A stretch of DNA of 64,000 nt from assembly GCF_013240295.1 (NCBI RefSeq), contig NZ_JABETK010000003.1, positions 186,001 through 250,000 of the forward strand, given 5' to 3'. Shown here piece after piece: positions 5,957 through 30,764 of the stretch (positions are counted from its first letter, which is position 1; each line of letters opens with the position of its first letter). Position numbers and translations under genes: made by a program. This stretch comes from Neoaquamicrobium sediminum (GTDB lineage Bacteria; Pseudomonadota; Alphaproteobacteria; Rhizobiales; Rhizobiaceae). The notes beneath the pieces were generated by a model, which searched no databases, was not told the DNA's origin, and saw only the letters and a list, made by a program, of their open reading frames with translations.

Positions 5957-6149
5957 CGGCCTGGACCGCGCCCTGCGACCTGCCTTTTTTCGTGCAGTGC
6001 ACAAATCTTGGGCTGGCAACAACGGCGCCTTGAATAAAAAGTGGTCAGCGGCATCAGCCCGAAACAGCTGCTTAAGCGCGTAAATCTCTGATATTGCTCG
6101 TTCTTCACTTCAATTCTGAAACTGGCACGTAAACTGCTTGGTTATTTGC

Positions 6150-6194: not shown

Positions 6195-6201
6195 ATCAGG
6201 C

Positions 6202-6271
6202 AAAGCCGCCGATCAGCTTCTGTCGCGTGCCCGTATACCGGTGCGCGTGAGGACTGATCGGCGGCTTTTTT
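6202..6271 (+). terminator. Intrinsic terminator in the nitrate operon leader
   Basis: A 15-bp perfect stem (6202-6216 with 6254-6268) encloses a GC-rich inner arm and runs into six T residues at 6266-6271. It lies 8 bases after the second ANTAR hairpin and 50 bases before the transporter start codon, so it would stop transcription unless NasT intervenes. Confidence 0.87.
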
Positions 6272-6321
6272 GTTTTCAGCCAGCGCACAGCCACTCCCAA
6301 GGGCTGATGATGGAGCCAGAA

Positions 6322-7623: not shown

Positions 7624-7643
7624 TCGGGCGGGAGATGATGGCC

Positions 7644-10093
7644 ATGACAGAGAAACTCGTCATCATCGGCAACGGTATGGCTCCCGGCAGGATGCTGGAG
7701 CATCTGCTGGAAGCCGCGCCCGGCCGCTATGACATCACGATCTTCAACGCCGAACCGCGCGTGAACTACGACCGCATCATGCTGTCGCCGGTGCTTTCGG
7801 GCGAAAAGAGCTTCGAGGAGATCGTGATCCATGGCGATGGCTGGTACGTCGCCAACGGCATCGTGCTCTACAAGGGCCACAAGATCGTCGCCATCGACCG
7901 CGAGGCGAAGACGGTGACGTCTAACCATGGCGTGACGGAATCCTACGACAAGCTCGTGATCGCGACTGGGTCCGTCCCTTTCATCATTCCGGTGCCTGGC
8001 AACGATCTGCCGGGCGTGCTGACCTACCGCGATCTCGACGACGTCGACGCCATGCTTCTGGCCGCCCAGTCGCGCCAGAAGGCGGTTGTGATTGGAGGTG
8101 GCCTTCTCGGCCTCGAAGCCGCCGCCGGCCTGAAGGAGCGCGGCATGGAGGTGACGGTGCTTCACGTCATGCCGACGCTGATGGAGCGTCAGCTCGATCC
8201 GGCCGCCGGCTACCTGCTGCAGCGGGCGGTCGAGGCGCGAGGCATAAAGGTCGTCACGCGGGCAAACACGAAACAGATCGTTGGCGATGGCAAGGTCGAG
8301 GGCGTCGAACTCGATGACGGCACCATCATTCCGGCCGCGCTGGTGGTGATGGCAGTAGGCATCCGGCCCAACGTGACGCTGGCAAAAGATGTCGGGCTGA
8401 CGGTCAACCGGGGCATCGTCACGGACGACCGGATGCGCACGTCCGATCCGGATATCCTCGCGCTCGGCGAATGCGCGGAGGTGGGCGGGCATGTCTACGG
8501 CCTGGTTGCGCCACTTTATCAGATGGCGCGCGTGGCGGCGGCCGCGCTGGCCGAAACCGGCGAGGACCATTTCGCCCATGCAGACACGCCGACGAAGCTG
8601 AAGGTCACCGGCATCGATCTCTACTCCGTCGGGGATTTCGCCGACGGCGACGACCGCGAGGAGATCGTGCTGCGCGACGCTTCGGCCGGTATCTACAAGC
8701 GCGTTGTGCTCAAGGACGACCGCATCATCGGCACCGTGCTGTTCGGCGAGACGGCGGACGGGGCATGGTTCGCCGATCTGCAGAAGAAACAGACCGATGT
8801 ATCGGCGATGCGCGACACGCTGATCTTCGGGCAGGCGTTTCAGGGGGTGCCTCGGCGGACCCTTTGGCGGCCGTTGCGGCACTCGCGGATGATGCGGAAA
8901 TCTGCGGCTGCAACGGCGTCTGCAAGGGTAAGATCGTTTCAACCATTACCTCCAAGGGACTGACGACGCTGGACGACGTGCGCGCCCACACCAAGGCGTC
9001 CGCCTCCTGTGGCACGTGCACCGGGCTGGTCGAGAAGCTGATGCAGCTTTCGCTCGGCGACAGCTACAACCCCACTGCGGTTCAGCCGATGTGCTCCTGC
9101 ACGGAACTGGGCCATGACGAGGTGCGTCGGCTCATCAAGGCGAAGGGTCTCAAGACGATCCCCGCCGTGATGCAGGAGCTTGAGTGGAAGACCTCCTGCG
9201 GCTGCGCCAAATGCCGGCCCGCGCTCAACTACTATCTCGTCGCCGACTGGCCCGACGAATATGCCGACGACTACCAGTCGCGCTTCATCAACGAGCGGGT
9301 TCACGCCAACATCCAGAAGGACGGCACCTACTCGGTCGTGCCGCGCATGTGGGGCGGTGTCACCTCTTCGAAGGAATTGCGGGCCATCGCCGATGTGGTC
9401 GACAAGTTCGCGATCCCGACCGTGAAGGTGACCGGCGGCCAGCGTATCGACATGCTGGGCATCAGGAAGGAGGACCTGCCCGCGGTGTGGGCCGATCTCG
9501 GGCAGGCGGGTTTCGTTTCCGGCCATGCCTACGCCAAGGGGCTGCGCACGGTGAAGACCTGTGTGGGGTCGGACTGGTGCCGTTTCGGCACCCAGGATTC
9601 CACCGGTCTCGGCGTCCGCATCGAGAAGTTCATGTGGGGTTCGTGGACACCCGCCAAGGTGAAGATGGCGGTGTCGGGCTGTCCGCGAAACTGCGCCGAG
9701 GCCACCTGCAAGGATGTCGGCGTCATCTGCGTGGATTCCGGCTTCGAGATTCACTTCGCCGGAGCCGCCGGGCTCGATATCAAGGGCACCGAGGTTCTCG
9801 GTCTGGTCAAGACGGAGGACGAGGCGCTCGAGGTGATCGTCGCGCTGACGCAGATGTATCGCGAGCAGGCCCGCTATCTGGAGCGCATCTACAAGTGGGC
9901 GAAGCGCATCGGATATGACGAGGTGCGGCGGCAGGTGCTCGACGATGTCGAACGCCGCAAGGCCTATTACGACCGCTTCGTCTACAGCCAGCAATTCGCG
10001 CAGGTGGATCCGTGGTCGGAACGCGTGTCCGGCAAGGACAAGCACGAGTTCCAGCCAATGGCGGCCCTTTCCTTCCAGCAGGCAGCGGAGTGA
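7644..10093 (+). CDS. nirB: NirB: assimilatory nitrite reductase [NAD(P)H] large subunit, frameshifted as sequenced
   Basis: NirB reduces nitrite to ammonium using siroheme and [4Fe-4S]. Domains in order: FAD/NAD(P)H oxidoreductase (1-400; IIGNGMAP, ATGSVP, VVIGGGLLGLEAA), BFD-like [2Fe-2S] region (CGCNGVCKG; CGTCTG), ferredoxin-like half-domain, and siroheme/4Fe-4S domain with ligands in TCVGSDWCRFG and GCPRNCAEATCKD. The frame breaks after GQAFQG at the five-G run 8843-8847; one added G gives the expected GGASADPLAAVAAL and an intact protein of about 816 aa. Start ATG 7644 follows GGAG at 7631-7634. The domains on both sides are perfectly conserved, so a sequencing error is likely. Confidence 0.92.
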
Positions 10094-10097
10094 CGCG

Positions 10098-10427
10098 ATG
10101 AACTGGCATGAAATCGGCACTATCGAGGACATTCCGGCGCGCGGGGCACGCTGCGTGACCACGCCGCAGGGCCGTATCGGCGTGTTCCGCACGGCGGACG
10201 ACGAGATCTATGCAATCGAGGATCATTGCCCGCATCGCGGCGGTCCGCTGAGCCAGGGCATCGTCCACGGCAACGCGGTGACGTGCCCGCTGCACAACTG
10301 GGTGTTTTCGCTCGAAACCGGCAAGGCGCTGGGTGCGGATGAGGGCTCCGTCAAGACCATCCCTGTGCGGGTGATCGACGGGCGCATCCTGCTGGGGCTC
10401 GAGCGCGCACTGATGGCGGCGGAGTGA
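10098..10427 (+). CDS. nirD: NirD: nitrite reductase small subunit (Rieske-like)
   Basis: This 109-residue protein is the small partner of NirB. It carries a Rieske [2Fe-2S] motif: CPHRGG with Cys/His, then CPLHNWVF about 18 residues later. It starts 5 bases after nirB. The stop at 10425-10427 sits just before the nasA start, so the three reductase genes are packed as one transcript. Confidence 0.93.
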   Translation: MNWHEIGTIEDIPARGARCVTTPQGRIGVFRTADDEIYAIEDHCPHRGGPLSQGIVHGNAVTCPLHNWVFSLETGKALGADEGSVKTIPVRVIDGRILLGLERALMAAE

Positions 10428-10432
10428 CGGCA

Positions 10433-13104
10433 ATGCAGGATCTGCCGGCAACCGAAGTGAGGACGACCTGCCCCTATTGCGGGGTGGGTTGCGGCGTGCT
10501 GGCGCGTGTCGCCGCGGACGGCAACGTGACCGTCCGCGGCGACACCGACCATCCGGCGAATTTCGGCAGGCTGTGCTCGAAGGGCTCGGCGCTGGGCGAG
10601 ACGACCAGCCTCGAGGGACGGCTGCTTGTGCCGGAGATCGGCGGGCGCGAGACTTCGTGGGACGAGGCGCTGGACCTCGTCGCGCGTCGTTTTTCGGAAA
10701 CCATCGAAAAACATGGACCGGATTCGGTCGCGTTCTACATTTCCGGGCAATTGCTGACCGAAGACTATTACGTGGCCAACAAGCTGATGAAGGGCTTCAT
10801 CGGTTCGGCCAACATCGACACCAATTCGCGGCTCTGCATGGCGTCGTCGGTTGCCGGCCATCGCCGCGCCTTCGGCGAGGATATCGTCCCTGGCACCTAT
10901 GAGGACCTCGATCAGGCCGACCTTGTGGTGCTAACCGGATCCAACACCGCATGGTGTCATCCGATCCTCTATCAGCGGTTGCTGGCGGCTCGCGAGGCGC
11001 GGGGCACCAAGATCGTCGTGATCGATCCCCGGCGCACGGCCACCGCAGAGGAATGCGACCTGCACCTCGCAGTCGACCCCGGCACCGACGTGCTCCTGTT
11101 CAACGGATTGCTGGCCCATCTCGATATTGCCGGCGTGATCGACCGCAATTTTGTCGACTCTTCGACGACCGGCTTTGCCGAAGCGCTTTCGGTCGCGAGC
11201 GCGGAAGCATCCTCGCCCGGCGCTGTTGCCGCCGGATGCGGGTTGGCGGAAGCCGACGTGCGGCTGTTGTACGAGCTGTTTGCCGCAACGTCGCGAACCG
11301 TCACCGTTTACAGCCAGGGCGTGAACCAGTCGGCGCATGGCACCGACAAGGTCAACGCCATCATCAACTGTCACCTTGCGACCGGTCGCATTGGCCAGCC
11401 CGGCATGGGGCCGTTTTCGGTCACGGGGCAGCCCAATGCAATGGGCGGGCGCGAGGTCGGCGGGCTGGCCAACCAGCTTGCCGCCCACATGAATTTCGAC
11501 CGGCCGGAAGACGTCGAGCGCGTCGAACGGTTCTGGAGCGCCCCTGCGATGGCGCGGCAGGCGGGTCTGAAGGCGGTGGACATGTTCCGCGCCGCCGGCG
11601 ACGGGCGAGCCAAGGCGCTGTGGGTGATGGGCACCAACCCGGCGGTCTCGATGCCGGATTCGGCGCGTGTGCGCACCGCTCTGAAATCGTGCGAGTTCGT
11701 CGTGGTCTCGGACGTAACCCGCACCGACACGACCCGTTATGCCGACGTGCTGCTGCCAGCTGCCGCATGGGGCGAGAAAGGCGGCACCGTCACCAATTCC
11801 GAGCGACGCATGTCGCGCCAGCGGCCCTTCCTGCCGGTGCCCGGCAATGCGCGAGCGGACTGGCGCATCATCTGCGATGTCGCGCAGCGCATGGGATTCG
11901 GCGATGCCTTCACCTATGATGGACCGCTGGAAATTTTCCGGGAACATGCCCGGTTGTCGGCGTTCGAGAACCACGGCGACAGGCTTTTCGACATCGGTGC
12001 GTTGGCCGAGATTGCCGATGCCGAGTATGAGCATTTCCCGCCTCGCCACTGGCCACAGGCGAGTGGTGAGCCATGCGCGGAGCGCCTGCTGGTGGACGGC
12101 CGGTTCCCGACACCGGATGGAAGAGCGCGCTTTGTTGCCGTTCGTCAGGAGGGCGTGGCGCTGCCGGTAGATGCGAAGCGTCCCATCGCGCTCAACTCCG
12201 GGAGGCTGCGCGACCAGTGGCACACCATGACACGAACTGGCCGGGTTCCCCGTCTGATGGCGAACGTGCCCGCACCGACACTCGAAATCGCCCCGCTGGA
12301 CGCACACCGGCGCGGGCTGAGGGATGGCGATCTCGCTCATATATCGAGCCGCTACGGGTTCGCCCGGGCACGCGTCACCGTCTCGGACAATCAGAAACCG
12401 GGTACAGCTTTCCTACCGATGCACTGGAGCGGCCATTTTGCCGCCAATGCAGGCGCGGGATCGCTTGCCACGCCGCTGAGCGATCCGTTCTCGGGCCACC
12501 GGAACTGAAGAACGTTCCAGTACGCATTGAACGTGAGGCCATCGCCTGGACGGGCGTGCTGATGACGCGTCGCGAGTTGCGGCCAACGGGCTTCGTCCAC
12601 TGGACGCGGCATCCGGTCGACGGCGGCTGGGTCTACGAATTGTGCGGCACCGAAACGCCGGACCAGGGCATCCTCCTGTCGCGCCGCCTGCTGGATGGGT
12701 CGCCGCGCAACCAGTTTATGGAATACACCGACCGGCGCGGCCTGACATACCGCGCTGCTGCCCTCGATCCGGCCGGTGCTCTTGCCGAGGCACTGCTGGT
12801 GGCACCCCTGGTCAACTTCCTCCACGAGACTGGCTGGTGTCGTTGCTTGGCGCGCGTGAGCCGCTGGCGGCGGGGCAGCGCATGGCGCTTCTGTCTGGAC
12901 GTTCGCCCGTGCCGATGCCGTCGATCGGCCGTGTCATCTGCTCCTGCTTCAACGTCGGCGAACATCAGATCGCGGCAGCAGTAACGCGTGGGGCCGCCGT
13001 TGGAGGACATCGGTCAGCAGCTTCGCGCGGGTACCAATTGCGGCTCGTGCCGCTCCGAAATCAGGACACTGCTCGATGCACATCGTCTCCAGGCTGCCGA
13101 GTGA
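10433..13104 (+). CDS. nasA: NasA: assimilatory nitrate reductase catalytic subunit, three frame breaks as sequenced
   Basis: NasA reduces nitrate to nitrite in the cytoplasm with Mo-bisMGD and [4Fe-4S]. The N-terminal cluster motif is CPYCGVGCG with a later Cys in GRLCSKGS. The Mo-ligand region is SRLCMASSVAG. The C-terminal molydopterin-binding domain follows, then a BFD-like [2Fe-2S] tail (CSCFNVGEHQI...TNCGSCRSEI). The frame breaks three times: near 12499 (one base missing, ...DPFSG then PELKNVPV), near 12825 (one missing, before RDWLVSLLG) and near 12997 (two missing or one extra, before LEDIGQQLRAGTNCGSC). Repaired length is about 891 aa. The ATG at 10433 follows GGAG at 10421-10424; a GTG at 10424 is an alternative. 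Confidence 0.9.
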
Positions 13105-14602
13105 CCCCGCGCCGCGCATAGGAGCGCTGAGCGTCCTTCCCGTCTTCCTCGACCTGACAGGCAAACGTGCCGTCGTCGTCGGTGGCAGCGAGGCCGCCGC
13201 ATGGAAGGTCGAACTGCTGGTGTCGGCAGGTGCCAACGTCGACCTCTATGCTGGCGAGTTGTCCGAGGGCATGGAGGAAGTGGCGGTGCGTCACCCGGCA
13301 ATCCGTCACTTTCCGCGAAGCTGGCGCGCGGGAGACTTGAATGGCGCGGCGGTGGCGCTCTGCGACGCCGAACACGACGTCGAGGCGGTGGCTTTCGAGC
13401 AGGCGGCGCGCGAGGCTGGGGTACCGTGCAACATCATCGACCGGCCGGAGTATTGCCACTTTCAGTTCGGAACGATCGTCAACCGCTCGCCGGTCGTGGT
13501 CGGCATATCCACGTCAGGCGCAGCACCCGTGCTGGGGCAGGCGATCCGGCGGCGCATCGAGACGCTGCTTCCGCCCACACTCGCTGGGTGGGCGGGGCTG
13601 GCTCGGGATTGGCGCCGCCGTGTCGCCGAGGCGCTGCCGGTTGGGCCGGCAAGGCGCAGGTTCTGGGAGCGCTTCGTCGACCGTGCGTTCGGGCCAGCCG
13701 CGGATGAAACCAGTGAAGCCTCCCTCCTTGGCGGACTGCAAGACATCGAGTCCCGCGGGCACGTCACCTTCGTCGGGGCAGGTCCCGGAGACGCAGAGCT
13801 CATCACGCTGAAGGCGATACGTGCCCTGCAGGCGGCCGACGTCATCCTGTTCGACGATCTCGTGTCGGATGAGGTGCTGGAACTGGCCCGGCGCGAGGCA
13901 AAACGTATTCTCGTGGGCAAGCGGGCGGGGCGTGCAAGTTGCAAACAGCACGAGATCAACGACCTGATGGTAAAACTCGCCAACGCCGGGCGACGGGTGG
14001 TACGGCTAAAGTCGGGCGACCCAATGATCTTCGGGCGGGCAGGCGAGGAGATCGCTGAACTGGAAAGGCATGGCATCGGCTACGACGTGGTGCCAGGGGT
14101 CACTGCCGGGCTCGCTTTGGCCGCCACACTTGGCGTTTCCCTCACGCACCGTGACAAGGCGCGATCGGTTCGTTTCATCACTGGGCATTCACAGCATGGC
14201 GGCCTGCCCGATGATATCGATTGGATGGCGATAGCCGACCCCTCGACCACGACGATCTTCTATATGGGCGGACGGACAGCTTCCTCGATCGCTTCGTTAT
14301 TGATCTCTCATGGCATGCCGCCAGAGACGCCGGTTGTTATTGCGGCCGACATTGGGCGGATTGGTGAGACCAAACTGTGTTGCGATCTGGCGGATCTGTC
14401 AAAGGGGATCAACACCCTCCTCAACGGAGGTCCGGTGGTGATCGGAATCGGTTCCGTGTTCGCCGAGAGAAGAGCGGACCCAGCCACCGTCATGGCCGCA
14501 GGGTCATCGTGGACGGACGAGTTCGGGGACACTTGCCCGCAAGTCTCGTTCGAGCGGCGTGCCGCCTTACAAACCATAGTACAGATAGATCGCGTAACAT
14601 GA
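13076..14602 (+). CDS. cysG: CysG: siroheme synthase (dehydrogenase/ferrochelatase + uroporphyrinogen-III methyltransferase)
   Basis: CysG makes siroheme, the NirB cofactor. The 508-residue protein joins a SirC-like NAD-binding domain (about 20-215; GKRAVVVGGSEAAAWK, NIIDRPEYCHFQFGTIVNR, STSGAAPVLGQ) to a SUMT methyltransferase (about 225-470; VGAGPGDAELITLKA, SGDPMIFGRAGEE, PGVTAGLA). Its start lies inside the end of nasA (29-base overlap), so it ends the nas operon. The last 30 or so residues run antisense through the end of an SLC13 permease remnant and are unlike the family, so the natural C-terminus may have been replaced. Confidence 0.92.
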   Translation: MHIVSRLPSDPAPRIGALSVLPVFLDLTGKRAVVVGGSEAAAWKVELLVSAGANVDLYAGELSEGMEEVAVRHPAIRHFPRSWRAGDLNGAAVALCDAEHDVEAVAFEQAAREAGVPCNIIDRPEYCHFQFGTIVNRSPVVVGISTSGAAPVLGQAIRRRIETLLPPTLAGWAGLARDWRRRVAEALPVGPARRRFWERFVDRAFGPAADETSEASLLGGLQDIESRGHVTFVGAGPGDAELITLKAIRALQAADVILFDDLVSDEVLELARREAKRILVGKRAGRASCKQHEINDLMVKLANAGRRVVRLKSGDPMIFGRAGEEIAELERHGIGYDVVPGVTAGLALAATLGVSLTHRDKARSVRFITGHSQHGGLPDDIDWMAIADPSTTTIFYMGGRTASSIASLLISHGMPPETPVVIAADIGRIGETKLCCDLADLSKGINTLLNGGPVVIGIGSVFAERRADPATVMAAGSSWTDEFGDTCPQVSFERRAALQTIVQIDRVT

Positions 14603-15089: not shown

Positions 15090-16203
15090 ATGCAGCACAT
15101 CTCTCACAGCTACCAAACCATCTACTCGGAACTGGCGCAGCGCGCATTGGATGGTGCTTTCACCTCTGAGTTCAGCGCTGACGGCCGCTTCATCACCGCT
15201 GCGGTCAAGGGCCGTCGCTACTGGTATTTCGACATGCCTGACGGGCAGGGGGAAGAAGCGAACCTATGTCGGTCCTGTCGATGATCCTGAGGTCACCAAA
15301 CGGGTGGACAACTTCAAGGACCTGAAAAGCGACATCCAAGAACGCAGGAAACTGGTCTCTACGCTCGTTCGTCAAGCATATTTGCCACGACCTGAACGAG
15401 GCGTCGGCGAGATTGTCCAAGCGTTGGCCGATGCAGGCTTCTTTCGGCTTCGTGGTGTTTTAGTTGGGACCGTTGCGTTTCAATGTTATCCGGCGGTTCT
15501 GGGGGTCCGTCTGCCCCGCACCGCCATGGTTACCGCCGATGCGGATTTTGCCCAATTCCATTCGATCTCGGTTGCTGTCGAAGATCAAATGCCGCCGGTG
15601 CTCGAAACGCTGAAGCAGGTGGATCCAACCTTTCGAGAGATACCGCACCAGAACGACGGTCGCTTCACAACGCAGTATACGTCCCGCGCCGGATACAAGG
15701 TGGAATTTCTGACCCCAAATACAGGATCGGATGAATATGGCGGACGTCCTGCTCCAATGCCTTCACTTGGAGGCGCGTCGGCGCAACCGCTGCGATTTCT
15801 GGATTTCCTGATATACAACCCGATCCGTGCCGTTCTGCTGCACGGGGCAGGGGTTCCGGTGAACGTGCCGGCGCCTGAACGATACGCAGTTCACAAGCTG
15901 ATAGTCGCAAGCCGGCGTCGGACCGACGGCGATGGCACGGCAAAAAGCCGCAAAGATCTTGCACAGGCTGCAACGATCATGGAGGTCATGATCGCCCAGC
16001 ATCAGGCGGAGGACTTGGCCGAGGTTTTCATTGAGGCCTGGGAGCGCGGGCCAGCTTGGCGCGAAGCGATCCGTAAGAGCATACGTCAGATCGAAGACGC
16101 TGCCAGAACGCAGATCTACACGGGTCTGTCGCACGGCATTCGGAATCTCGAAATTGATCCTGCTGATCTCGGACTCGACAAAATATTGGAGAATGGCGAA
16201 TAG
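15090..16203 (+). CDS. GSU2403-family nucleotidyltransferase-fold protein, frameshifted as sequenced
   Basis: Repaired, this is about 370 residues. The N-terminal part is helical (MQHISHSYQTIYSELAQRAL). The core resembles the GSU2403-type nucleotidyltransferase fold: GVLVGTVAFQCYPAVLGVRLP followed by TADADFAQ, whose Asp-x-Asp would be the metal site. Later come the conserved FLTPNTGSDEYGGRPAPMP, RFLDFLIYNPIRAVLLHGAG and PAPERYAVHKLIVASRRR. The break is at the five-G run 15248-15252; removing one G joins ...FDMPDGQG to KKRTYVGPVDDPEV. The family is uncharacterised to my knowledge. A toxin-like or RNA-modifying role is speculation from fold and operator-like repeats. Confidence 0.8.
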
Positions 16204-16498
16204 CTGAGCAACCGGCGATCGCAGCGACCGACCGGAAACTCAATTCCGCATTCCTCTAATTTCATTTCAACAAACCATCGCCGACGGCAGGGGGCTCTCG
16301 GATTAACTCGCTACGCTGATTTCTTCGGCCACCGGACAAACATCTCAACTGCGCTCGGAAGGCTCTCGTTAACGTTGACTTCCGGCGGTGCGGAAGGTGA
16401 TTGACAACGATTACCAAAACAGAAGAAGATTATATCGACACTATACTTTTCCACCAGCGTAACAACGAGACGAGTGCCGCGGGGGCGGAGAGGTTCTC

Positions 16499-19400
16499 GT
16501 GCCACAGAGCCTTGCGCTCAGTGATCTGGTCGCTCCTTACTTCCTGAAGGGGCAGAACCTGAACGCCTTCCACGCGGCATTTTCCGTGCTGCGCGTGGTC
16601 GAGCATGAGACGGCAAGCGACGCTTTCGGCATCTCCATCCGCGGCCGCGCCGAGTTCCAGGGCCGGCTCAGCATTCCCGGTCCAAACGGTGCGCTATTCC
16701 AGTTCCGAAACGACGAGACCGATCCACCTTTCGACCCGGCGCAGCGCGACCCCGTCTTCGATCTGTCGGAGACGAGCATCAGCTTCGAACTGCATGTGCC
16801 GCGCACCGCGTCCACCATCATTGCGGCAGGCGCCGCGCAACTTGCAGGCGACGCCAACTTTGCCGCCGCTCGCGCGGTTCTCGCCGATTGGGATCCGATC
16901 CCTCTCGACGCGCCGCCATCCGACTTTCCGGCCTCGGCCTTCACGCTGGACCTGATCGTCAACGCACCAACCTTCCGGCCCGGCGGACTGCGGCCGGCGC
17001 GAATGACTGATGACGGGCTCTTGGTGCCCGACACCAATTTCAGCGAAGTGGTGCTGAATCTCCCCAAACTCCGCTTTCGCCTTGCCCACGATCAGGGTGA
17101 CGGCAGGCTGCGCTTCCTGCTTTTGTCGAGCGGTGTCGAGAGCCTCGACGACCCGACTGACATTGCCACATCCGAATTCATATCCATGGTTCCACCCTAT
17201 GCGTTCGTAAACGGCACCGACATCGGCATCGGATTCCGTGGCGGGACGCTGGACCTGTCCAGCGAAAGTACCCCTCCGGACGTATTGGAGCGGATCGGCG
17301 TCGGCGACGATTGGCAGGGCATTTACCTGCCGGAACTGCGCGTGTTTGTCTCCGGCGGCCGCAACGGTTTCGCATATCAGTTTGGCGTGCGCGATTTCCT
17401 CTTCGGTTTTGGTCCAAACGGCGGCATTTCGGGCGACTTCGAGGGCAGGATTTTCAACCAGGGCAGCGGTGACCTGACGGTGGGAGCACGCTTCTTCGAC
17501 GCCTCCGGCCGCAGTTTTGCCCTCCTGGAGCGGGACGGCGCGACCGCCTCCGCAGTGTTGCCGGCGATCACCCGGATGGTCGTGGACGTGGAGGGTGGGC
17601 GCACGCCCTACGGCGTGTCGGTCTCTGTCGACGGTGCTGCGCCAGCAACCGGTCGAATCTTCGAGATCGATTTGTCAGCCAATCCCACCGCCACAATCGC
17701 TATCGCCGTTGCGGACGCAACGTCCGGCGCGCCGGACAGCGCCGCGCTGACGATCGCCGCGCGCAGGGGCGATCCGCGTACCATTGTCGTTACCCCTGGC
17801 ACCGCCGCCGAACCGGCCAGGCAGGCGATGATCGCTGTTGCCGCCGGCGCGAACCCACGCATTGTCATAAAGGAGCAGAATGATCGCTTCGTCACGCTGA
17901 CCACAGAGCCTCTTGAGCGTGACGTGCGATGGTCGCTTGACGGCGGCGCCGAAACGACGCCGCGACCGAATTTCACAGTCGAGGTCGTAGCCGGCGCCTC
18001 ACACCAGATTCGCGCGAGCATCCCCGGCATGACGGTCGAGGCGATGCCGGTCTATTTCTACTTCGACCTCCCACCGAAGCCGGGCGCAGGCGCGGCTGAG
18101 CCACAAATCCTTGCCTCTGTGCTGCCGGAAAGCAACGACCAGGTGTGGACCAGCCTGGCGCGCGGCAGATCGCCAGGTTCTGGTCGCGAGACCGGCGGCC
18201 ACCGGCCCCTGACGGGCGGCAACCATCCTGCAATCTTCGAGGCGATCGATCCCGCCGTCACGCAGATCCAGATCGTGGGGCATGCCAGCTTCGAGGACGA
18301 TGAGAGCAAGCTGGAGCACAATTACCAGCTGGCTCGCCGACGTGCGATTGCCGTACGCGAACTGATCCACCATCACTACCCTGGCCGCTTCTCGCCCAGC
18401 ATAGACCCCGAGCCACCGGTCAAGGAGAGCTACGTCGCGCTTCCTGCCTGGAAGGCTGCCTGGATGACGCACAAGTCGCCTTCCGATCGTGACTGGTGGA
18501 AGGCCGAGATCAAGTTCAATCCTGACCCCAGCCGTCCGCCACGCGCCTCTGATGCAACATTGACCCGTGATCCGTCCGGCGGTGGGACGCCGCCAGTGAT
18601 ATCGGTCATTGACCCGCCAGTTCCGAACCCACCGCAGCGGCCCGACTGGTTCCGCAGCGCGGGTGTCAAATTGCGGGTCATCGAAAGCCGCTTTGTTGCG
18701 ATCCAGATCGACGGCGAGATCGATGTTCAGACTGCCGCCGAGGAAAAACTGCGCAATACCGGCCAGGTCCAAGGGCAGCCTGCCGAACGTGTTCGCACCC
18801 TGCAACGGGGTGTGCCGCTTGCGCCCGACAACCCGGGTGACGGCATCACCGCGTTCCGCTTCCTGCTGCAGGAAAACGAGATGACCGGCGAGACGGTGGT
18901 GTCGTTCTCGATCGGCGCCGACCCGTCTGACACCGATGGCCTGCTCGCCGTCGGTTGGCTTCCCGGCGAGGCACGGACGCAGAGTTTCTGGCGCGAACCT
19001 GCTGGGCTCTTACATCTCGTTCTGGCCGCTGCTTGCCAAGGCTGCGGACCGCGATGTCGGCTCGCCGGTCGATGCCGTGATCACGGGTGCCGAGCTGGCC
19101 CTTCCACCATTGATCGCCGCGCTGCCATGGTTCACGGTCGAACGCGTCATCCTGCACGGTGCTGAGTATCTGGCGCGCTGGCATGTGGCTGGCAGCGAGG
19201 GCAACATCTATTTCGACCTTGAGGCGTGCTGGTCGGCGTCCCTGCCTTCCGAGAATGACTGGCTTGTCCGCATCGATCCCGCCGCACCGCTCTCCGTCCG
19301 CTACAAGGCAATCGGCGTGCGGCTTTCCGACTTTGACGATGATGGTGCTCCGATCGCGCCGCGTTACGAGTTCAGGCCGGTCTTCGACAGTTCGCGCGGC

Positions 19401-22400
19401 TACACGATCGGCCTGCAGAACTCCGGCGGGTTGATGCTGCGCCCGCCCTTCGACCGTATCTTCAAGATACTCGGCGCGCGGCTCTCACGCATCAATCCGA
19501 TGACATTCGAGGTCGAGATCGGAATGGGTGTCGATTTCGGGGTCGTCTCATTCGACAGGCTGGGCATACGTGCCTATCTCGACCAGCCCCGACCACCTGA
19601 GATCACATCCATCGGGGCACGTGTCGACATTCCCGGGGCACTTGTCGGCGACGGTTACCTGTCCATCAGCAAGACCAAGATAGGAGGCCAGATCGACCTG
19701 ACGGTCCGCGCCATCGGGTTGCGCGTCGCTGGCGCGCTTGAAATCGCCGACATCTCCGAAGCCGAAGGCGGCCCAGCGACCGGGCTCTTCGTCGGCCTTG
19801 ACCTCCTCCTGCCAGTCGGCATCCCGCTTGGCTCGACCGGCCTGGGGATATTCGGCTTCCGCGGCCTGTTTGGCATGCACTATGCACGCACGCCGATCGG
19901 CGCTGACAAATCGGTTCCATCTATCGAGTGGCTGAAGGCGGCAAAGGGGCGACCGAACCTGCTCAAAACCGAACCTGCTCAAACGGAAGAGGAAGAGGAA
20001 GATAGCGGCGTCATTTTGTGGGAGCCGCGGATCGACCGCTGGTCGTTCGGTGTCGGGACCATAATCGGCACCATGGAAGGCGGTGTGCTCCTCAATCTTG
20101 ACGGAACGCTGCTTCTGGAACTGCCGGGGCCAAACATCCTGATAGCGCTCAATGCGCGCTTTCTGACACCGCCGCCAGCGATGGAAGAGGCCGGAGGCGT
20201 TGGTGGCGTCCTGGCCGTCCTGGAGATTACCCCGCAGCACATTGCGATCGGCATCTACGCCACCTACGAGATCGAGAAGCTGATCGAGATCAAGATCCCG
20301 GCGGAGGCCTTCTTCTCGACCGGCAATTTGCGCAAATGGCACTTCTATCTCGGCGCCCGCCCCGACGTCCAAGGTCCGGGTCCCGCGGTCGTGCGCGTAC
20401 TCGGCATCGTCGACGGCACCGGATACCTGATGATCCGCGGAGAGGGCCTCCAAGCATACAAGGACCTACCCGGCATCACCGGCTTCGGCATCGGCATCGG
20501 GGCCGGGGCCTCGTTTATCTGGGGTGATACCGACATCGGTCTCTATCTCAAAGTCGGCGGCGGCTTCGACGCGGTCGTCGGCTTCGACCCGATGCTGATC
20601 TCCGGCACCATGAGCGTCTACGGCGAACTTCGCCTGTTCATTGTCTCGGTCGGCGCGGACGTCCACCTGACCGTCACCGTGCGCGAGCAGGACGGCCCCC
20701 TGCCAATCGCCGTTCGGGTCGACGGCAAGGCGTGCGGCCATGTCGATTTCTTCTTCTTTGAGATCAGCGAATGCGTCTCGATCTCTTTCGGAACGCCGGG
20801 CATCGAACCGAACGTGCCGGGACTGATCGGCAAGGTGGCGCTCAAGAGCCGTTCGCCCGCATTGACCCAGGGAACCGGCGTCGACCGTCCCATCGACGGC
20901 AGTCTGGGCGATGCCCATGAGAGCGTCGGCGTGCCGGCGGCCAATGCGCCGCTGCCGGTGGTGCCGATTGATTCCATCCCTGTCATCACCATGCTGGCGC
21001 CGCCGGTGATCGAGGGCGCCGCCTTCCTCGGCACGACGCTCGCACCGCCCCCGAACTTGGACATGACGGACAACGGCTTCGTCGATCGCGGTGGGGAGCG
21101 CTATCGCTACGGGCTGCAGGTCCTCGAACTCGAACGCATCGCGCCAGACGGGTCGGTGATCGACCCGCCCGTGCTCGGCATCGGAACGCCGACGCGCTGG
21201 TGGACGCAGCAGGGTGCGACGGGCGATCCTCGGCAGCGCAACTGGCGTTGTTGACCTGGGACCTCGACCCCGCGCCCAAGGCCATCGAGACCAGCGACAA
21301 GCGCACCGAGACGATCCGCGACCGCTGGCAGACGGTGTGCGACGACGCCGCGCCGCCGGCCGCCGTGCTGTGGACGTTCCGCTTCGAACCGCTCGGCCCG
21401 AGCACGTCCGGCTGGGATCTTGCCGGCATCGCCTGGCCAGACCCGGACGGCACGCGGCGGTCCGGGACGGCAGACGCCAGGCTCTTCGTGCACGAGAAAT
21501 GGCGCAGCGGCATCGCCTGGGTGGACGCCGCACGCGGCATCGTGCCGGCGATGGTGGTGGGAGGTGCAGTTCCCTGCATCCGCCGCACGCGCCCGCTGCG
21601 TGACCTGGCCGAGATCGTGCGCGTCGGCGGCCGCGGTCCGGTCATGCGCGAGGAGGGCGCAGGTGGGCGGGACGGATTCTCGCTTGCGCCAGACGACACG
21701 GTCCTTGCAGCACTTGTGGGCTCGGATGAGGTCAAGCCTTTCAGGGTTCCGGAGACTTTGCACGCCAAGGCGCTTGCCGACATGACGGCGAGGCCGCAGC
21801 GCGACCAGTTTGCAGCAATAGCCGCGCTCGGCCGCGGCGAGGAGGTGTCTCGCGCTGACATCCTGGGGGCATTTTCGCCGGTCGGCACGTTGGTCGCGGG
21901 CGAAAAACGCGCATGCGAAGCGCGGGTACTGCAGTCGCCTCAGCTTGACGACGGGACCCTCGTGCGCTTCGCCGGCCCGCTGAAGGAAAAGCTCGTCAAG
22001 GAAGCGTTGGAGAAGGCCGGCATCGTGCACGGGCCGCTGGACGACACGCTCGTCCTGGAGACCGCAGGGTTCGACCGCTTGCGCCTGCTGCTGTTCCTTA
22101 CGCCGATCGACGAGGCGGCGACGATCGTCATCCGCGTGCTCGACGAGCAAGGCAATGAGCTGGAATCGCGGCCCGTCACCTTCGACGATCTCGTGCCCCC
22201 GCGCGACCTCCCCGAGGAATGGACTAGGACTGACATGCCGTGGGCGGCCGGAATCACCGACGTGTTCGCCTTCCTGGAGGCGGAGAAGCGCCTCGGCCGC
22301 TACCGCGCGGCCCTGGTCGAACTCGGCCCACATGAAAAGGCCGCTCGGGTCGAGATCGGCGTGAAGCGCTCCGATCCGCAGCTTCGTCCGTTCCTGCTGC

Positions 22401-23677
22401 CCTACTATCTCGCCGCCATCGAACTGCTGCGCCTTTCCGAGAGGCTGCGCTTCGACCACGACACCACCACGATCGACCGCGAGCGGGAGATCGTGACCGA
22501 ATCGCTCGGGCCGGCGAGCACCGACAACGCCTTCCTCTTCCCGTCCTCGCTCTATCGCTGCCGGCTCAGCTGGGCCGGGACCCGCAAGAGTTCCGGCAAG
22601 GCCCGACAGGGCGAGCAGAGCTTCTGGTTCCGCACCGATGCCGAGGCACCGGCAAGGCTGGACTCGTTCGTGCTGATGACCTCGCCGATGGAAGGCGAGA
22701 CGCACTATTTCGGCGGCGAACCCCCGCGCCTCGTCTTCGCCACCGCCGACATCGATCGTCTCTACGGCGCCTACGGCAAGGAGCTGAAAGTCCGCTTGCA
22801 GGCGGCCTCCGGACGGCATCCGCCGGGACAGGATGGAACGGCGGGCCAGATCGACATCTCGGCCGCGACCCTCGCCGGTGCGGGCTCCCTGGTCCTGTCC
22901 CCGTTCGAAGACGCGCTTGTCGGCGTGCTTGATGGGCAGTGCATCCCGATCGACGGTGGCCGTACCCGCCAGACAGTGGTCGTGATCCCGATACCGCTGG
23001 AGCCTTTCACCGACTACATCATGGACGTGGTGGCGGTGCCGGTCGGTCAGCATGCGACGCACGAGACACCGTTTATCTACCGTCGCCACTTCTCCACCGG
23101 CGGTCATGCCACGATGACGGACTTCGGCGTTTCGCTCGGCGGGCTGACAGTCGGCCACCGTGCCCTGCAGGCCGGCATGACCATGACGCATCTGGCGCCG
23201 TTTGCCGGCCGTGCCCCGATGGGCCAGGAACTCGACGAGGCTTTTGCCCGCGCCGGTCTTGATGTCGACGGAGCGCCGCGGACGCCGAAGGTGACGGTGC
23301 TATGGGAGCCCGCCCCCGGCGGCAGCCGACCGACGGCCATCCTCGTCGATGCGGACGAGCCGTTGTCGCGTGCCAGGCTCTATCCCGAGAGCGTGCCCGA
23401 CCCGGATGGGCTCCCTGGCACGAGGCGCTGGAAACTTGTTGAGAAGGAATGGCTGGGCTTCCAGCCGGCGGCCGCAAGTGCGGGCCTGATTGAAGGTGAG
23501 CCTGTGATTGCCCCGGGCGGCCAACGTGCATTGATATTACTCAGATCCGGCGCGCTCGGCAGCCGTATCCAGCTTGAACTGGTCCGTCGACCGTTTTCCG
23601 AACCCTATCTGGCGGTTGCCGAGGAGCGCAGGATTGTCGTCGACCTGCAGCTTTCCCAGCCGCCGTGGGAAGAGTGA
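16499..23677 (+). CDS. Giant beta-rich protein with OmpA-like segment (first gene of an unassigned three-gene cluster), two frame breaks
   Basis: Three overlapping frames join into one protein of about 2,390 residues. GTG 16499 follows GGAGAGG. No signal peptide or membrane helix is seen. Near residues 580-640 is an OmpA-like segment (TQIQIVGHASFEDDESKLEHN, with the RA-AV pattern of that fold). From about 1,000 to 1,430 there are glycine-rich alternating strands suggesting a large beta solenoid or barrel (GLGIFGFRGLFGMHY; GFGIGIGAGASF), reminiscent of DUF6603-type proteins. The last third is acidic/hydrophobic with no recognised domain. Breaks: near 18992 (one extra or two missing) and near 21233 (one missing). 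Alternatively it is two or three separate proteins. Function unknown. Confidence 0.65.
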
Positions 23678-23684
23678 GATCGCC

Positions 23685-26600
23685 ATGGAAGAGGAATTCA
23701 TCCTCGATCCCGATCGCTTCCTGCTTGCCGCCGCGCTGGTGGACTGGGCCGCGCTCGCACGCCGCGACGAGACCCATATGACGGCACTGAAGCAGAGCCG
23801 CGAGACTTTGGTGCGAGGCGTGCAGCTGCGCTGGCTGCTGTCACCGGAGCTTGGTTACCCGACCGAACCCTTTGAGGTTTGGCGGCGGCCGGCGCTCAAC
23901 GTGCAGCTGGAAAAGGAGCTGCCGGTCGAGGACGAGACACTGATCGTCCAGACGTTGTTCAACTGGCGAGCCTTCGCAGCGCCGTCCCCAATGGTTTTTA
24001 TTCGTGCAACGCTCCAAGTGACGGCACCGCAGGCTAATGTCATTGCTTTTGCCGGCGCGCCCTTCGGCTCGGCTGTCGTCGGCATCGAGACCGTGTCGAG
24101 CGGCTTCAGGACGATCTCGTTTTCCGCACCACAGATTGCCTGCCTGGTGCTTTTTGACGGGGTCGAACTCCTGCGCTGGGTCGGCATTGACGGCCAGGAC
24201 GCCAACCGGGGTGAGTGGACGCTCATCGAGCGCGTTGGGCTGCCCGTCGACCAGGGCGAGTGGAACGGCGTATTCGGCCTCGACGCGGATCAAGGGCCAG
24301 CAGGCATGCCTATGCCGCCGGTAGACGCCGCGCTGTCGCGCTTTTCCCGGGGCGCTGCGCCGTTCGGATGGCAGAGCGCCTTCGCGCCAGGCCGTCTTGC
24401 CCCCCACTGGCGGAAAGCAGACCCCAAAGCCTTCCTCCGGGTTATGGAGGACGACGTCCTTGACGGGCTGCTGGAGATGGTGACCACCCGCCCGCCGAAC
24501 CTGCACGGCACGCTGGAACGCTCGGTGGACCTGGCCGCCGAAGGCGGAGGGGAAGCTGCCGCGGCTACCTTCTCGCTGCTTGGCACGCTGATGTTCGCCG
24601 CTGCGACCGATCCTGTCGCGAGCCTGCTTGCCGGTTTTGGAACCGCAGTCGAGGAAATAGACATCCCGCCGATCTCCGTTCGCGACGTCGAATATTTCAA
24701 CGATCCCAACAGGAGCGACAGCGATTTCCGCGTTACCGCGCGTTTTGCCAACGGGCTCGACGGTCAGTCTGACAAGATCGCCTTCGCTGCCATCGCGCTG
24801 TCGCCGCGCCGCGTCGTCCCGCCACCACCACCGGCCAATCTCAGTATTCTGCAGGAAGGGATGCGCTCGCCGCCCACGACCGATGGTGCATGGCGACCGG
24901 TGATGCGGTTGGGATGGGATCGGCTGCCGCCCGGTCTGCCGCTTCGATCGGCCGCCTACGCCCATGCTCGCAGCGTCGGCGGGGCCCGCACCGCGCAGGC
25001 GCTTATCCTGCCGCGCAGGGGCGACGAGGCGCTTCAGCCGATCGGCGTGACGACCGGCAGCGACGTACCTGCGAACGTGCCGCAACTGCGCGCCTCGGAC
25101 GACAGCTTTGCCATACCTGGTAGTCCGGCCGTCGTTCCGCTTCTCTACGGCGTCGCCCATCAGGACATATTCGGTGTCTGGAGCGAGTGGCGCACCGCCC
25201 CGATTAATGTGCAGGAACCCCCGTGCAGATCGTGCCTGTCTTGTCTGCGTCGCTCGACACTACGGCCTCCGCAGGACCCTGTCCGGCCTCGCTGACGGTG
25301 GAGTTTGCCTGGGACTGGGCAGCGCGCTCACCGGCCGATATCCGTTTCGCAGGGGTGCTCTACGCTCAGGCCCGTCGCGGCGATCCGCCGCTCGGGCCAG
25401 CGGCACCAATCGGCCTGCAGAGGAGCCTTGGCGGTGCTGCGGGTATGCCATTTGAGGTCAGGTTCGACCCCGCCGGCAACGCGGCCGTCGATGCCGGGCA
25501 CGCTCCAGCATCTGAGTGAGGACGGTCGCGACATCATTGCTGGCCCGCTCAACGTTGCCGGCCCCCGCCGCTACCGGCTTCGCGTCGACGGCTTCTCACT
25601 CGATTTCAACGCCGCCGGGCACATCGGATTGGCTCTGTCGGCAATGGCGATCGAGAGGCGCCCCCCGGCCGTGCTGGTGGTTGGAGTGCACCGCGCATCG
25701 CTTCGGCGTCGGACCCGAGGCCACCCGTCATCGCGACAGAACACGAAGATGTGCTGCTCGCCAGTATGGAAGACGGGGCCGGGCGCCATCATGCGCTTGT
25801 GACATGGCCCTCGGCACCTGGAGCGGCCGGTTATTTCATCTATGCTGCCCAGGAGGGAAAATTACGGGCCGACTGGGGACTTGCCGAGCCGCGGCTGGAA
25901 CAAACCCTGTCGCAGCGCCTTGTGGAGTTGCGAAACGCCTTTGCGGCCAATCCGGCGAAGCGCTTCTTCACCCGGCTCAACGAGACCGCAGTCAGCGCGA
26001 CATCCTATCAGGCAACATTGCCCCGCGGCAGCAAGGAGATTCATCTCTTCCTCGTGGTCGGAATCAGCGCCGGCGGCGTGGAATCCGAATGGCCTGGTGC
26101 CGGGGATCCGATGCTTCGCAAGCGGCCCATCGCCTATGCCGCGCCGCAGAAGCAGGTTCCCGACGCCCCGACATTGGAAGTGCGCCGCGCCGCAGATCCC
26201 GACAGTGGAACCGATGCCTTTCGCGCGGATCTGCGGCTCACCACGCTGCCGGGGGCGACGGTCGACCGCATCGACATTCACCGGGTTCGATCTGAAGCAG
26301 CCGCGGTGGAGCTGGATACCATGGGACCGCCGCTGATGACAGTGCGTAGCGGTGAGCCGACCTGGGCGATACGTGCGCTCCCGCCACGTGGGGCCGCGCC
26401 GGGCCAGGCGATCGGCATCGCCAATGGCGTGGACCGGCCGGCGGGCAGCTGGTCGCCGCTTTACTACCGGGCCGTCGCATGGTCACTGCCGCGTCCCGAA
26501 CGTGGCCTTCTGGGCGGACGTTCGAAGCCTTCGGCAGCACGCAGTGTGGTCATACCGCCACCTGGCCCGCCGGACCTCCAACCGCTTGAACATTCCTGGC

Positions 26601-27364
26601 CCGGTGGCGATATTGCTCTGATCGAAATTGCGACGGCGACGCCGGCTCCTATCGAGGCCACGACGCTCGGGGCGCATCGACTGCGCGTGGAGGTAACCGG
26701 TCTTGCTGAAAACGGGCCCGGAACCGCGCTGTTCGCGTGGCCAGAGCTTGTCGATGGCGTGCCGGGAGACGGCTCGCTCCGCGCATTGCCGACGGCCCCT
26801 CCAGCATTGGGAACGAGTGGCATCTGGCGCGAGACGCCGGATGAGAACACGCGAATTCGGCTGCGCATCGTGCGTCCGAACGTGGATACCGCGCTGTCGG
26901 TGCGGTTCCAGCTCGACGATCCTCTTGGCCGCGCGACGGAGCGCATTGCAGCGGTGCCCGCGGGTTCGCCGCTTCCGCCGCTTGCCTTCGGCGTGGTTGC
27001 CGTGAGGCGCATTGCCGGTAAGGGGTTCGTCGTCCGCGCACCGATCAACCTGCCGCTCAAGGTGCCTCCAGAAGCGGGATACCGACTCAAGGCAGCCTTC
27101 CGGCCGCACCTCGCTGTACCAGGCCCGCTTCCGCGACCCATGGGGCGCGGGGTGACGCTCGACGTCGACTATGCCGACATTCCGCAATTGCGCCCTCTGG
27201 AGGACCCGTTCGCCGGCACGGTCCCGCTGCCGGTACGCCGCGAGGCCGCCGGTCGAACGGGGGCGTTGCTATCCTTCTACCTGCGTGGCCAAGGCGGCAG
27301 TTTGCGTGCGACCCTCGGCGGCGTGGATGGAGCACCCGCGTCCTTCATGCAGGAGGTCCCTTGA
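23685..27364 (+). CDS. Large unassigned protein with fibronectin-III-like stretch (second gene of the cluster), three frame breaks
   Basis: The start is ATG 23685, 7 bases after the previous stop; the repaired length is about 1,226 residues. Most of it matches no family I know. Near residue 700 the pattern HHALVTWPSAPGAAGYFIYAA resembles a fibronectin type III strand pair, and similar W/Y-spaced strands recur. No signal peptide or membrane helix. Breaks: C run 25218-25222 (one missing; restores INVQEPP then VQIVPVLSASLD), GGG 25496-25498 (one extra; restores DAGTLQHLSEDG), and near 25684 (one missing; restores SAPRIASASDPRPPVIATE). Frame continuity across the breaks supports a single gene. 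Confidence 0.62.
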
Positions 27365-27365
27365 C

Positions 27366-30300
27366 ATGCTGCCTCTGATGCCGGCTCAGACCGTGCTCAC
27401 CGCAAATTCGGCAGCCAATGACCTGCAGGCGCGCGGGCTCGAGGCGATGGGGCTGGCTGCGCCTGCGCTAAGCCCGCTCTGGGCCGGGTCGAACCCGGCG
27501 CAGGGGGACTACGATCCGACCGCACTGACCCTGCGCCTTGCGTCCCCGCGCGCACCTTTCATGGGCATCGCAACCTGGCTTGCCGCGCCCGCCATCTATA
27601 GTGATGTCAGCGGTCAATCAGTGACGGGTCCCGCCTTCGCGCTGACGTTACACCCGGAAGCCGCTCGTCGGCTTCAGGTGCTGGTCGACCTGCGCACCGG
27701 GTCCAACGTCTATCCCGTGCCCGTTGCCATGCTCCTGCGCGGCATCGCGCCGCCGTCCCCGCTGCCGCCCCCTCAAATCTATCTCGCAGGAGAAACACTT
27801 GACGACGGTACCGCCACCGTCAGCTTCCACGATGCGCGCGGGCTTCCCATAGATCCAATCGCGATGGCGCATTTGTGGAACGACCTGATGGTCTTTCGTG
27901 CCGCGCTACAGAATGCAAACACCTTCGCCGGCACACCCGCAGACCCTGGCGGCATCGGCTCAATGCTGGGCTTTGCCGCCGGCGATCTCTGCCACGTCGT
28001 AGATCCGCACGGCTGGCGCTATCAGGGCACACGCCCGGCGGCCACGTTGCGTGTACTTAACGGAGCGGGAGATGCAGTTCGCGATCTCGCTGCCGATAGT
28101 CTCGAGACGCTCGCCGCCGGGGAGACTTTCGGGCGCTCGAATGCGGATATTGCCGCGGTACCGGCCAACACGGTCCCTCCGCTGCGTTGGGGGTTCGCGC
28201 GCAACGGGACGCTCGGACAGGCACGACTTTCCGCGCCTGCGCTGCCTGCAACAGTGGGGCTCGGCCGCCGCTTCTTCCGGATCATGGCCGTCGATCTGGA
28301 TTGGCATATCCTCGGCAATCGCACCATGGTGCCGATCGCGAGCGTCGCTGGCGCAGCGATCCCGGCGGAGGACGGCGGCACACCGCCGTTTCTGCACCCT
28401 GTCGTGCGAGATAGGACGCCGGGCTTCGCCTATCTCGCCGATGGCGTGGATGTGCTGGGCGCGATGGCTGCGATGACACAGGGCTTCGGCAATCCCAACG
28501 ACCAGTTGTTTGCCGCCGCTGTTTCTCCGGCTCTGGATCCGGCGGTCCTTGCGCCGCCCGCACCGGGAGCGCAGTGGCCGGCCTTTCCGCCCGCCGCCGC
28601 GACCTCGGAAATCGTGCAGACCGCGGACCCGCGCCAGGGGCTCACTGCATCCTGGCGCGCGCCGGGCGACGGTCCGGGCGCGGTGCAGGACGTCGTGCTG
28701 ACCGTCGATGGATCCCAATTGCCGCTCGGTGCTCACCTTCGCGCCTATCCGCGCCGCTTTGTCGAAATCGCCTCGATCGGCGAGCAGCCCTCTTTCGTAC
28801 GCGGCGACGGCGGCGCGACCATCGTACAGGGAGGTCCCGCCAGACTTCTGCTGGTCAATCCATTCGGCCTATCGCCGGCCGAGCCGCATCCATCACCGGC
28901 GATCCTGATCGTCGACCTGGTGGTCGTTTCGCGCAGCGGTCGGCGCCGCATGTATTCAGGCGTCAGGCTGGAGGTCGCGGCCGGACCGGACGCTTTTTGT
29001 ACCGGACACCAGTTTCGGCGGCGTGCCATTGCTCGCGCCGGGCACACTGGTCGCCACAATTCTCGACGGTTTCATGACACGGTCGATCGCGCCGGTACCG
29101 GCTTTTGGTCTGCCGCGTCCGCCCGCCTCCGCCGGACCTCCGACGAGCCTTACCGAACTTTTGCGACGGCTGGCGAGCGACGAGCAGCCGCGGCAGGGAC
29201 CGCGCCTGCCGACGCAGGCCCGCTTCGACACGCAATTCGTGATCGGCGTGTCGCCTGCACCTCCTGCAGGCAATCCGAATCTACCCTACGACTGGCAGGC
29301 GGTGACGACTGGTGCGCGGTTGACGCCGGAGAGCCGCCACGCCCGGCCCGAACTCGCCAATGCCGGCCATCCCGCCGGACCGGACGTCTTTGCCTCTGGA
29401 ACGGCTTTTTCAGGCGCGCTGGCTCGCGACGCCGCACTGCATGCGATCAAGCGCGCGCAGCCGATCTTCATTCCGACCGGAGGCGCGAACTTCCGCGGCT
29501 GGCTCGCCACGACGATGGACGACAAATGGAATGACCCGCCGGGGCCACCGCCCGGTGGCACGGTGGCGGCGGCTGTTCTGGAAACGATTGCGCCCTTCTG
29601 TGACACGCCCGAGCTTGCTGCTGCACCGGCGCCTCAGCCCGGTGCAACCCTGCAGAACCTGATCAATCAAATCGCCGCCGACCTCGGCATCCAGCCGCCG
29701 ACCGTGACACTTGGCAATGAGCAGCGCGTCGTGCCCATCGTGCAGCGCGAGATCGCAACCGCGCGCTCGGGCCAGCGCGATGCGTTGTGGTCGCTTGTTC
29801 GTGCGATCGGTCAGGCGCGCGAGTTGATCTACGTGGAAGGCCCCGCCTTTGCGCGCACGTCACGGCCCGATGGGCCGCCACGCCCAGACGAGATCGATCT
29901 CGTAAGCCTTATAGCGGCGCGGATGGCAGCCAATCCTCGTCTCAAGCTCATTTTGTGCGTACCGCGCGAGGGCGATTTTGCGCGCGAGCGCCCGCACTGG
30001 ACAGTCACCGCATTGCGGCATCGCCGCGAGGCGCTGGCAGACCTGATTTCGGTCGACCCTCGCCGGGTCGCCGCGTTCCACCCTATCGGGTACCCCGGCC
30101 GCGCCGCGCCATCCGCACAACCACGGTGATCGTGGACGACGTGTATTGCCTCAACGGGACGAGCCATTTCCGGCGCCGTGGAATGACCTTCGACGGCGGG
30201 CTCGATGTCGCGTCGATCGATACCGCGATAGGCGAGGGGTATTCGGCCGGCATTGCGAACTTCCGGCAACGCCTGATGGCTGCCAAGCTCGGCGTGAACC

Positions 30301-30536
30301 CAGCAGCGACAGTCGCGGCGGCAACGGCGCTATGGATCAGGCTCGCAAAGCCGGAAAGCGCTTTCGATGTTGTATTCGACTTGCTGGCAGGTGGTGGGGC
30401 GGGAAGGCTCCAACCGATCTGGGCCGGGGCGGAGCCCGACAACATCATCCCGCAATCGGACGCGGTGGTCGATCCCGATGGCGTGGACACGGATTCGTTC
30501 CTTCAACTCTTCGCAGCCCTCATCGTAGAAGGCTGA
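27366..30536 (+). CDS. Large protein ending in a phospholipase D-like segment (third gene of the cluster), two frame breaks
   Basis: This gene starts 1 base after the previous stop; repaired length about 1,056 residues. The first 750 residues are unassigned and Ala/Pro-rich. From about 800 the sequence looks like one half of a PLD-fold protein: ALWSLVRAIGQARELIYVEG, RLKLILCVPRE, then TTVIVDDVYCLNGTSHFRRR and GMTFDGGLDVA. In active PLD enzymes the strand before VDD carries HxK; here the aligned residues read R-T-T, so catalysis is doubtful. Breaks: T run 28994-28998 (one extra) and near 30105 (one missing, just before the degenerate motif). No signal peptide. Probably co-transcribed with the two genes upstream. 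Confidence 0.65.
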
Positions 30537-30764
30537 ACCGCACCGCCGTCCGGCGCCCCTTGATCGGCTTTCGAAAACTACCCGATGCCTCGCGCGACAG
30601 GATCTCGTTCTTCGAAGTGTTGTGAGGTGTAGGTGGATGCAGCACGAAAGGAATATACCGGCCCGTGATCGAAGGCGGATAGACCACCGGCTCAGCTTCT
30701 ATCCACCACGTTCGCAAGACTGCTGCCTGCCCCGAAACAATGTTGGCGCGATGACGCCCTTCCA

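Follow-up and report, generated by a model that had tools for sequence, protein, structure and literature searches.

We describe an operon of three giant genes, here called A, B and C, that is real, conserved and undescribed as far as the literature searched shows. No description of the A-B-C cassette was seen in that literature, DUF6603 is named in none of the papers of the library searched, and a search of passages in two Rhizobium tropici expression papers (PMC5936775 and PMC4782375) gave nothing on the cassette locus. Taking the comparisons below together, we take A-B-C to be a rare operon, probably spread by horizontal transfer, that would encode a giant assembly without enzymatic activity and with a predicted lipid- or membrane-facing part, and we put the probability of this reading at roughly 35%.

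A conserved operon of three giant genes

The window, by which we mean the whole 64,000-nucleotide stretch of Neoaquamicrobium sediminum DNA that was analyzed, encodes at positions 16499-30536 three giant proteins arranged head to tail, with the following features.

16499..23677, + strand: gene A, in three frame pieces (16499-19165, 18936-21254 and 21200-23677)
18260..18367, + strand: OmpA/Pal-like segment of A (PF00691, E 0.047, residues 588-623, below the cut-off)
19197..20880 (approximate), + strand: central amphipathic beta region of A, about residues 900-1450 of the Aquamicrobium sp. LANL01G protein
23685..27364, + strand: gene B, in two frame pieces, with no family match
27366..30536, + strand: gene C, in three frame pieces
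29749..30366 (approximate), + strand: degenerate phospholipase D (PLD)-like second half of C, placed by profile matches and alignment

A sequence-only reading of this DNA had proposed three tightly packed giant genes of about 2,390, 1,226 and 1,056 aa after repair, separated by 7 and 1 bases and looking like one operon. The open frames lie where it placed them. The gaps are 7 bases (A-B) and 1 base (B-C) here and equally in Aquamicrobium sp. LANL01G (genome G002, contig C3, locus L007), the closest relative with intact genes, which is assigned to the same genus as the window's genome and is 96.0% identical in DNA to window positions 15461-30538. In that relative the frames are open and give 2382, 1227 and 1056 aa for A, B and C. 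Including this one, nine loci outside the window have the same order.

Five or more frame breaks interrupt A, B and C in the window. Two of the eight non-cassette window genes compared, nirB and nasA, which belong to an ordinary nitrate-assimilation set beside the cassette, are broken as well (nirB lies in two frames; a single frame holds part of the length of nasA, the other part being a second piece), and the other six are unbroken. Since these neighbors share the defect, assembly error is the likely cause of the breaks in the cassette. Both nirB and nasA (window 7044-12984) are open in the LANL01G genome, a sign of assembly indels.

Each of the three genes is under purifying selection in three genome pairs. 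The dN/dS values for A, B and C are 0.068, 0.197 and 0.152 between the window and Aquamicrobium sp. LANL01G, 0.198, 0.233 and 0.187 between Sphaerotilus and Leptothrix, and 0.132, 0.184 and 0.116 between two R. tropici. With the order shared by nine loci and dN/dS between 0.068 and 0.233, the cassette is more than chance, and conserved order and dN/dS together rule out chance open frames or an artefact.

Compared with LANL01G, the region has the divergence pattern of a mosaic history. The left-hand nitrate genes (window 4017-14562) show dS of 0.24-0.35, against 0.08-0.13 for the cassette, and three genes to the right of the cassette (region 15461-36367) exceed 99% protein identity. A PF12281 nucleotidyltransferase gene (window 15151-16203) stands 295 bases upstream of A; in LANL01G some 840 bases of different sequence displace the 5' portion of this gene. 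LANL01G also has, between C and a GntR gene, an 1151-aa gene (C3, about 200597-204052), sensor-kinase-like as assigned by eye, that is absent from the window.

Distribution and probable horizontal transfer

We sought relatives of A by a pattern scan over 84,980 species, which returned seven loci: Aquamicrobium sp. LANL01G, a Rhodospirillales metagenome-assembled genome (MAG), Sphaerotilus mobilis, Leptothrix discophora, Streptomyces geranii, an Intrasporangiaceae MAG and Rhizobium tropici SARCC-755. In a plasmid collection, one of 72,556 records, that of R. tropici CIAT 899, has A, B and C alike, and the ninth locus is another Burkholderiales genome; all nine keep the A-B-C order with open frames. 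The sequence-only reading had suggested looking for the same three genes in the same order in other genomes, and these loci answer that suggestion positively.

Elsewhere the cassette is scarce. A match, to a piece of A, occurs in one of 99 other relatives sampled. Among 398 further genomes from the order to which Sphaerotilus belongs, a single one carries the cassette, and none of 397 other Pseudomonadota or 395 other Actinomycetota sampled does. Phage sequences searched with R. tropici A gave no match, nor did IMG/VR with profiles of A, B and C, a pattern-based search that distant copies can escape; on these absences a phage origin was rejected.

Identities of A cut across lineages, the LANL01G protein being 48% identical to that of Sphaerotilus, 44% to that of Streptomyces and 30% to that of R. 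tropici. Trees likewise nest the actinobacterial pair among proteobacterial rows, with a very long R. tropici branch whose placement is unsure. Because the cassette is rare and patchy, and because identities and trees do not follow lineage, the comparisons suggest that it has moved by horizontal transfer.

Protein A and its probable relation to DUF6603

In Pfam, as in every library used, no model matches A above its cut-off, and a full-length match of the cassette proteins to a described system, which would have refuted the sequence-only reading, was found in none of Pfam, NCBIfam, PHROGs, PADLOC and PDB. The OmpA-like segment claimed earlier is reproducible and recurs in relatives, but it is weak: no score reaches a cut-off, and the curated ones are missed by far (Pfam E 0.047 for the window piece and 0.002 for R. 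tropici; NCBIfam Pal E 9e-5). These matches extend over 35-62 residues, part of the OmpA/Pal C-terminal domain. In all seven A rows the motif GxASxE stands in place of GHTD, and Ser occupies the position of the peptidoglycan-binding Asp.

Signal peptides and membrane helices had been said to be lacking from all three proteins. None of 15 proteins put through a simple Kyte-Doolittle scan has a strongly hydrophobic N-terminus, in agreement with the first half of that claim; 19-residue maxima reach 2.19 in A near residues 840-920, where a single membrane segment is possible. Residues 900-1450 of A show a strong beta moment in 20-23% of scanning windows, against 6-7% after block shuffling (z 5.5-8.1 in four of four proteins). 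The effect is milder in residues 1-550 (z 2.0-3.3) and absent after residue 1450 (z -0.7 to 0.9). DUF6603 domains share the property, with z of 3.1-7.2 in 12 of 12; a soluble beta-sandwich can equally be amphipathic.

DUF6603 (PF20248) is, like A, of unknown function, and whether it would hit the first protein had been raised as a check. Its Pfam model matches nothing in the window's own genome, in the window pieces at E<=1 or in R. tropici A. The Rhodospirillales MAG protein (locus L008) scores 18.4 bits (E 0.001) against a curated cut-off of 27; at E<=1 the model matches within A in none of the other five relatives, a threshold at which 3 of 14 control genomes were matched as well. By the Pfam cut-off, then, A is not a DUF6603 member.

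Profile-profile comparison points to a more distant tie. Forward hhalign of A against DUF6603 gave 84.2% over 301 columns, most of the domain, with 8.3% when the roles were reversed; adding the ninth locus as an eighth row raised the values to 91.7% forward and 54.9% in reverse. Leaving out the R. tropici row weakened the link to 8.5-14.8%. The alignment register is constant across these comparisons. Decoys stayed low: 0.2% for reversed profiles, 0.1% and 1.5% for TonB barrels (12 of 16 barrel rows kept) and at most 1.3% in 12 of 12 block shuffles. Among 1956 comparisons of one profile window with another, two pairs exceeded 20%, both joining the center of A to DUF6603. Given the constant register, the decoys at or below 1.5% and the identity of those two pairs, the central ~500 residues of A are probably a distant relative of DUF6603. 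The same windowed comparison gave no signal above 20% for internal repeats or for homology among A, B and C, and the long glycine-rich beta repeats proposed earlier were not recovered.

Structure prediction, which had also been recommended, gave unreliable models. AlphaFold on A residues 545-1720 (seven rows) has a mean pLDDT of 45.6 and many long antiparallel strands, and its best Foldseek matches were ApoB, pilus ushers and LptD, at TM-scores of at most 0.14 by query length. With pLDDT and TM-scores this low, we leave the fold of A unnamed.

Proteins B and C

B has no family match in any library used and no PDB chain at E<=10. A fibronectin-III-like stretch had been read into the cluster, yet FN3 models match none of seven members of B at E<=1.

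The degenerate PLD-like segment was confirmed and lies toward the end of C. Searching 297 Streptomycetaceae genomes with the C profile gave 25 matches: one full cassette, 23 PLD-like proteins matching columns ~793-1034 alone, and one in another stretch. Residues ~795-1010 of C align with the second half of the Streptomyces PLD-like proteins, giving C a terminal likeness to the phospholipase D family, but the ~800 residues before it match nothing. The HxKxxxxD motif, present in three of three Streptomyces PLD relatives, is absent from seven of seven C rows, where by alignment Arg replaces the His and Thr, Ser or Ala the Lys. On this alignment the PLD-like half is degenerate, with the catalytic His and Lys replaced. 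AlphaFold on C (seven rows) has a mean pLDDT of 43.3; Foldseek matches of this model were noise and were not used for naming a fold.

The genes had been proposed to build a structural or surface assembly. Loss of the PLD-like site from all seven rows makes the structural part of that proposal plausible; the surface part is unsupported, as no export signal was seen.

Neighboring genes

Beyond A-B-C, no flanking gene is common to all loci. In the window the cassette is flanked by the nucleotidyltransferase-like gene (PF12281) upstream and transporters downstream, with no metallo-beta-lactamase or sheath-type neighbor. Sphaerotilus and Leptothrix have, upstream of A, a metallo-beta-lactamase gene on the strand of the cassette and a divergent tail-sheath-like gene with PF04984 and PF17482 above the cut-off. 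Among PADLOC models, the Leptothrix metallo-beta-lactamase matches LmuA (E 2e-51), Avs1a (1.5e-33) and RTasMBL (2.2e-32). Flanks were read in eight lineages, of which two, both members of the Sphaerotilaceae, have this pair. In Streptomyces geranii a caspase plus helicase gene lies upstream of the cassette, and in Intrasporangiaceae an 832-aa PLC-like gene follows C (25.0 bits against a cut-off of 26.8).

The absence of sheath or tube genes nearby, as first reported, applies to the window and to its own genome, but not to these two relatives. Each of their genomes has one PF17482 match and none to PF06841. Their sheath-like genes (L061 12214-13914 and L063 2669-4360) are 58% identical, most neighbors being 76-98% identical, and no tube gene is detectable in the genome. 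Across carrier genomes, PF17482 (sheath) occurs in four of eight and PF06841 (tube) in two of eight; both are missing from the window's genome (G000), G002, G104 and G105, and the tube family from G101 and G102. The Rhodospirillales MAG has a sheath-tube-AAA cluster on another contig (L076 9306-17178), its sheath and tube found by family search and the rest named by eye. A sheath-like gene beside the cassette in two relatives recalls extracellular contractile injection systems, and plasmid relatives of that gene lie in tail-like clusters (4 opened of 127 records), but genes for a sheath, tube, baseplate or ATPase are absent from the cassette itself.

DUF6603 operons in Streptomycetaceae

DUF6603 is present in 64 of 297 sampled Streptomycetaceae genomes. 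At 12 loci (L048-L059) picked from this list, mostly for the strongest matches, the DUF6603 genes are the heads of packed giant-gene operons. A family of ~590-860 aa directly follows in 11 of the 12, at two of them as a pair of frames, and a family of ~1150-1940 aa comes next in 10; gaps or overlaps are mostly below 80 bases. The exceptions are one locus with the ~1150-1940-aa family upstream and one with other giants.

DUF6603 proteins resemble A in profile, amphipathic beta pattern, giant size and first-gene position, but the genes that come after them in Streptomyces show no relation to B or C in hhalign. There the companions reach no more than 1.2%, the DUF6603 gene itself aside, and they were rejected as homologues. 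Pfam gave no match for the four companions scanned, which belong to cl1 or cl2. The companions being unlike B and C, what is shared is the layout and a DUF6603-like first gene. Metallo-beta-lactamase-like genes abut DUF6603 at 2 of the 12 loci (gaps of 20 and -4); their similarity to one another is weak (E 1e-4 to 1e-5).

Possible mechanism and alternative explanations

The likeliest mechanism, we infer, is a giant, non-enzymatic complex that faces lipid or a membrane. The center of A would form an extensive antiparallel beta sheet or a body resembling a barrel, its hydrophobic face meeting lipid or a membrane, or packing against a partner. B may be a long linker or scaffold, and C would cap the complex, its dead PLD fold perhaps binding a phosphodiester or lipid without cutting it. 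Because no export signal is visible, we propose that the complex assembles in the cytoplasm and would act there or be freed by lysis.

The main rival makes the cassette a module resembling those of conflict or defence, or else a device derived from a tail, in which the giants would be the body and exchangeable neighbors (metallo-beta-lactamase nuclease, caspase-helicase, sheath-like protein, PLC-like protein) the effectors or triggers. A conflict role is possible because sheath-like and defence-type metallo-beta-lactamase genes lie nearby in two relatives, the Leptothrix enzyme with its PADLOC matches, and the S. geranii gene, the sub-threshold Intrasporangiaceae gene and the two DUF6603 loci with metallo-beta-lactamase-like genes point the same way. 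However, these neighbors vary by lineage, the enzyme and sheath pair is confined to Sphaerotilaceae, the window has nothing comparable, half of the carrier genomes give no sheath or tube match, and a PADLOC scan of the LANL01G A, B and C gave no match at E<=0.01; we therefore consider this reading unlikely.

A surface or matrix assembly, such as an adhesin, a sheath or a wall-attached structure, would reach the exterior by an unrecognized route, and the OmpA-like segment would anchor it to the wall. That segment, the large size and beta-rich sequence, and the fact that Sphaerotilus and Leptothrix are sheathed bacteria would fit, but none of 15 proteins has a hydrophobic N-terminus, the presumed peptidoglycan-binding Asp is Ser throughout, and some carriers, namely Streptomyces and Intrasporangiaceae, are Gram-positive and lack an outer membrane, making such an assembly rather improbable. 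That the cassette is a decaying island with no present function in the window's genome might be read from its at least five frame breaks; it is very improbable, as ordinary neighbors are broken too, differences from LANL01G are mainly synonymous and the frames are open at nine loci.

Significance

The cassette occupies ~14 kb per genome, is under selection in two phyla and encodes proteins that the libraries used do not explain. Three carriers, Sphaerotilus mobilis, Leptothrix discophora and Rhizobium tropici, are cultivable. More tentatively, DUF6603-type proteins may lead an undescribed class of giant machines, with a putative lipid- or membrane-facing beta body, two to three giant partners swapped between lineages (B and C in the present cassette, other families in Streptomyces) and sometimes a defence-type metallo-beta-lactamase nuclease. 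With the tie between A and DUF6603, and with the Streptomyces giant-gene operons beside it, what looked like a single odd locus becomes part of a class that can be tested.
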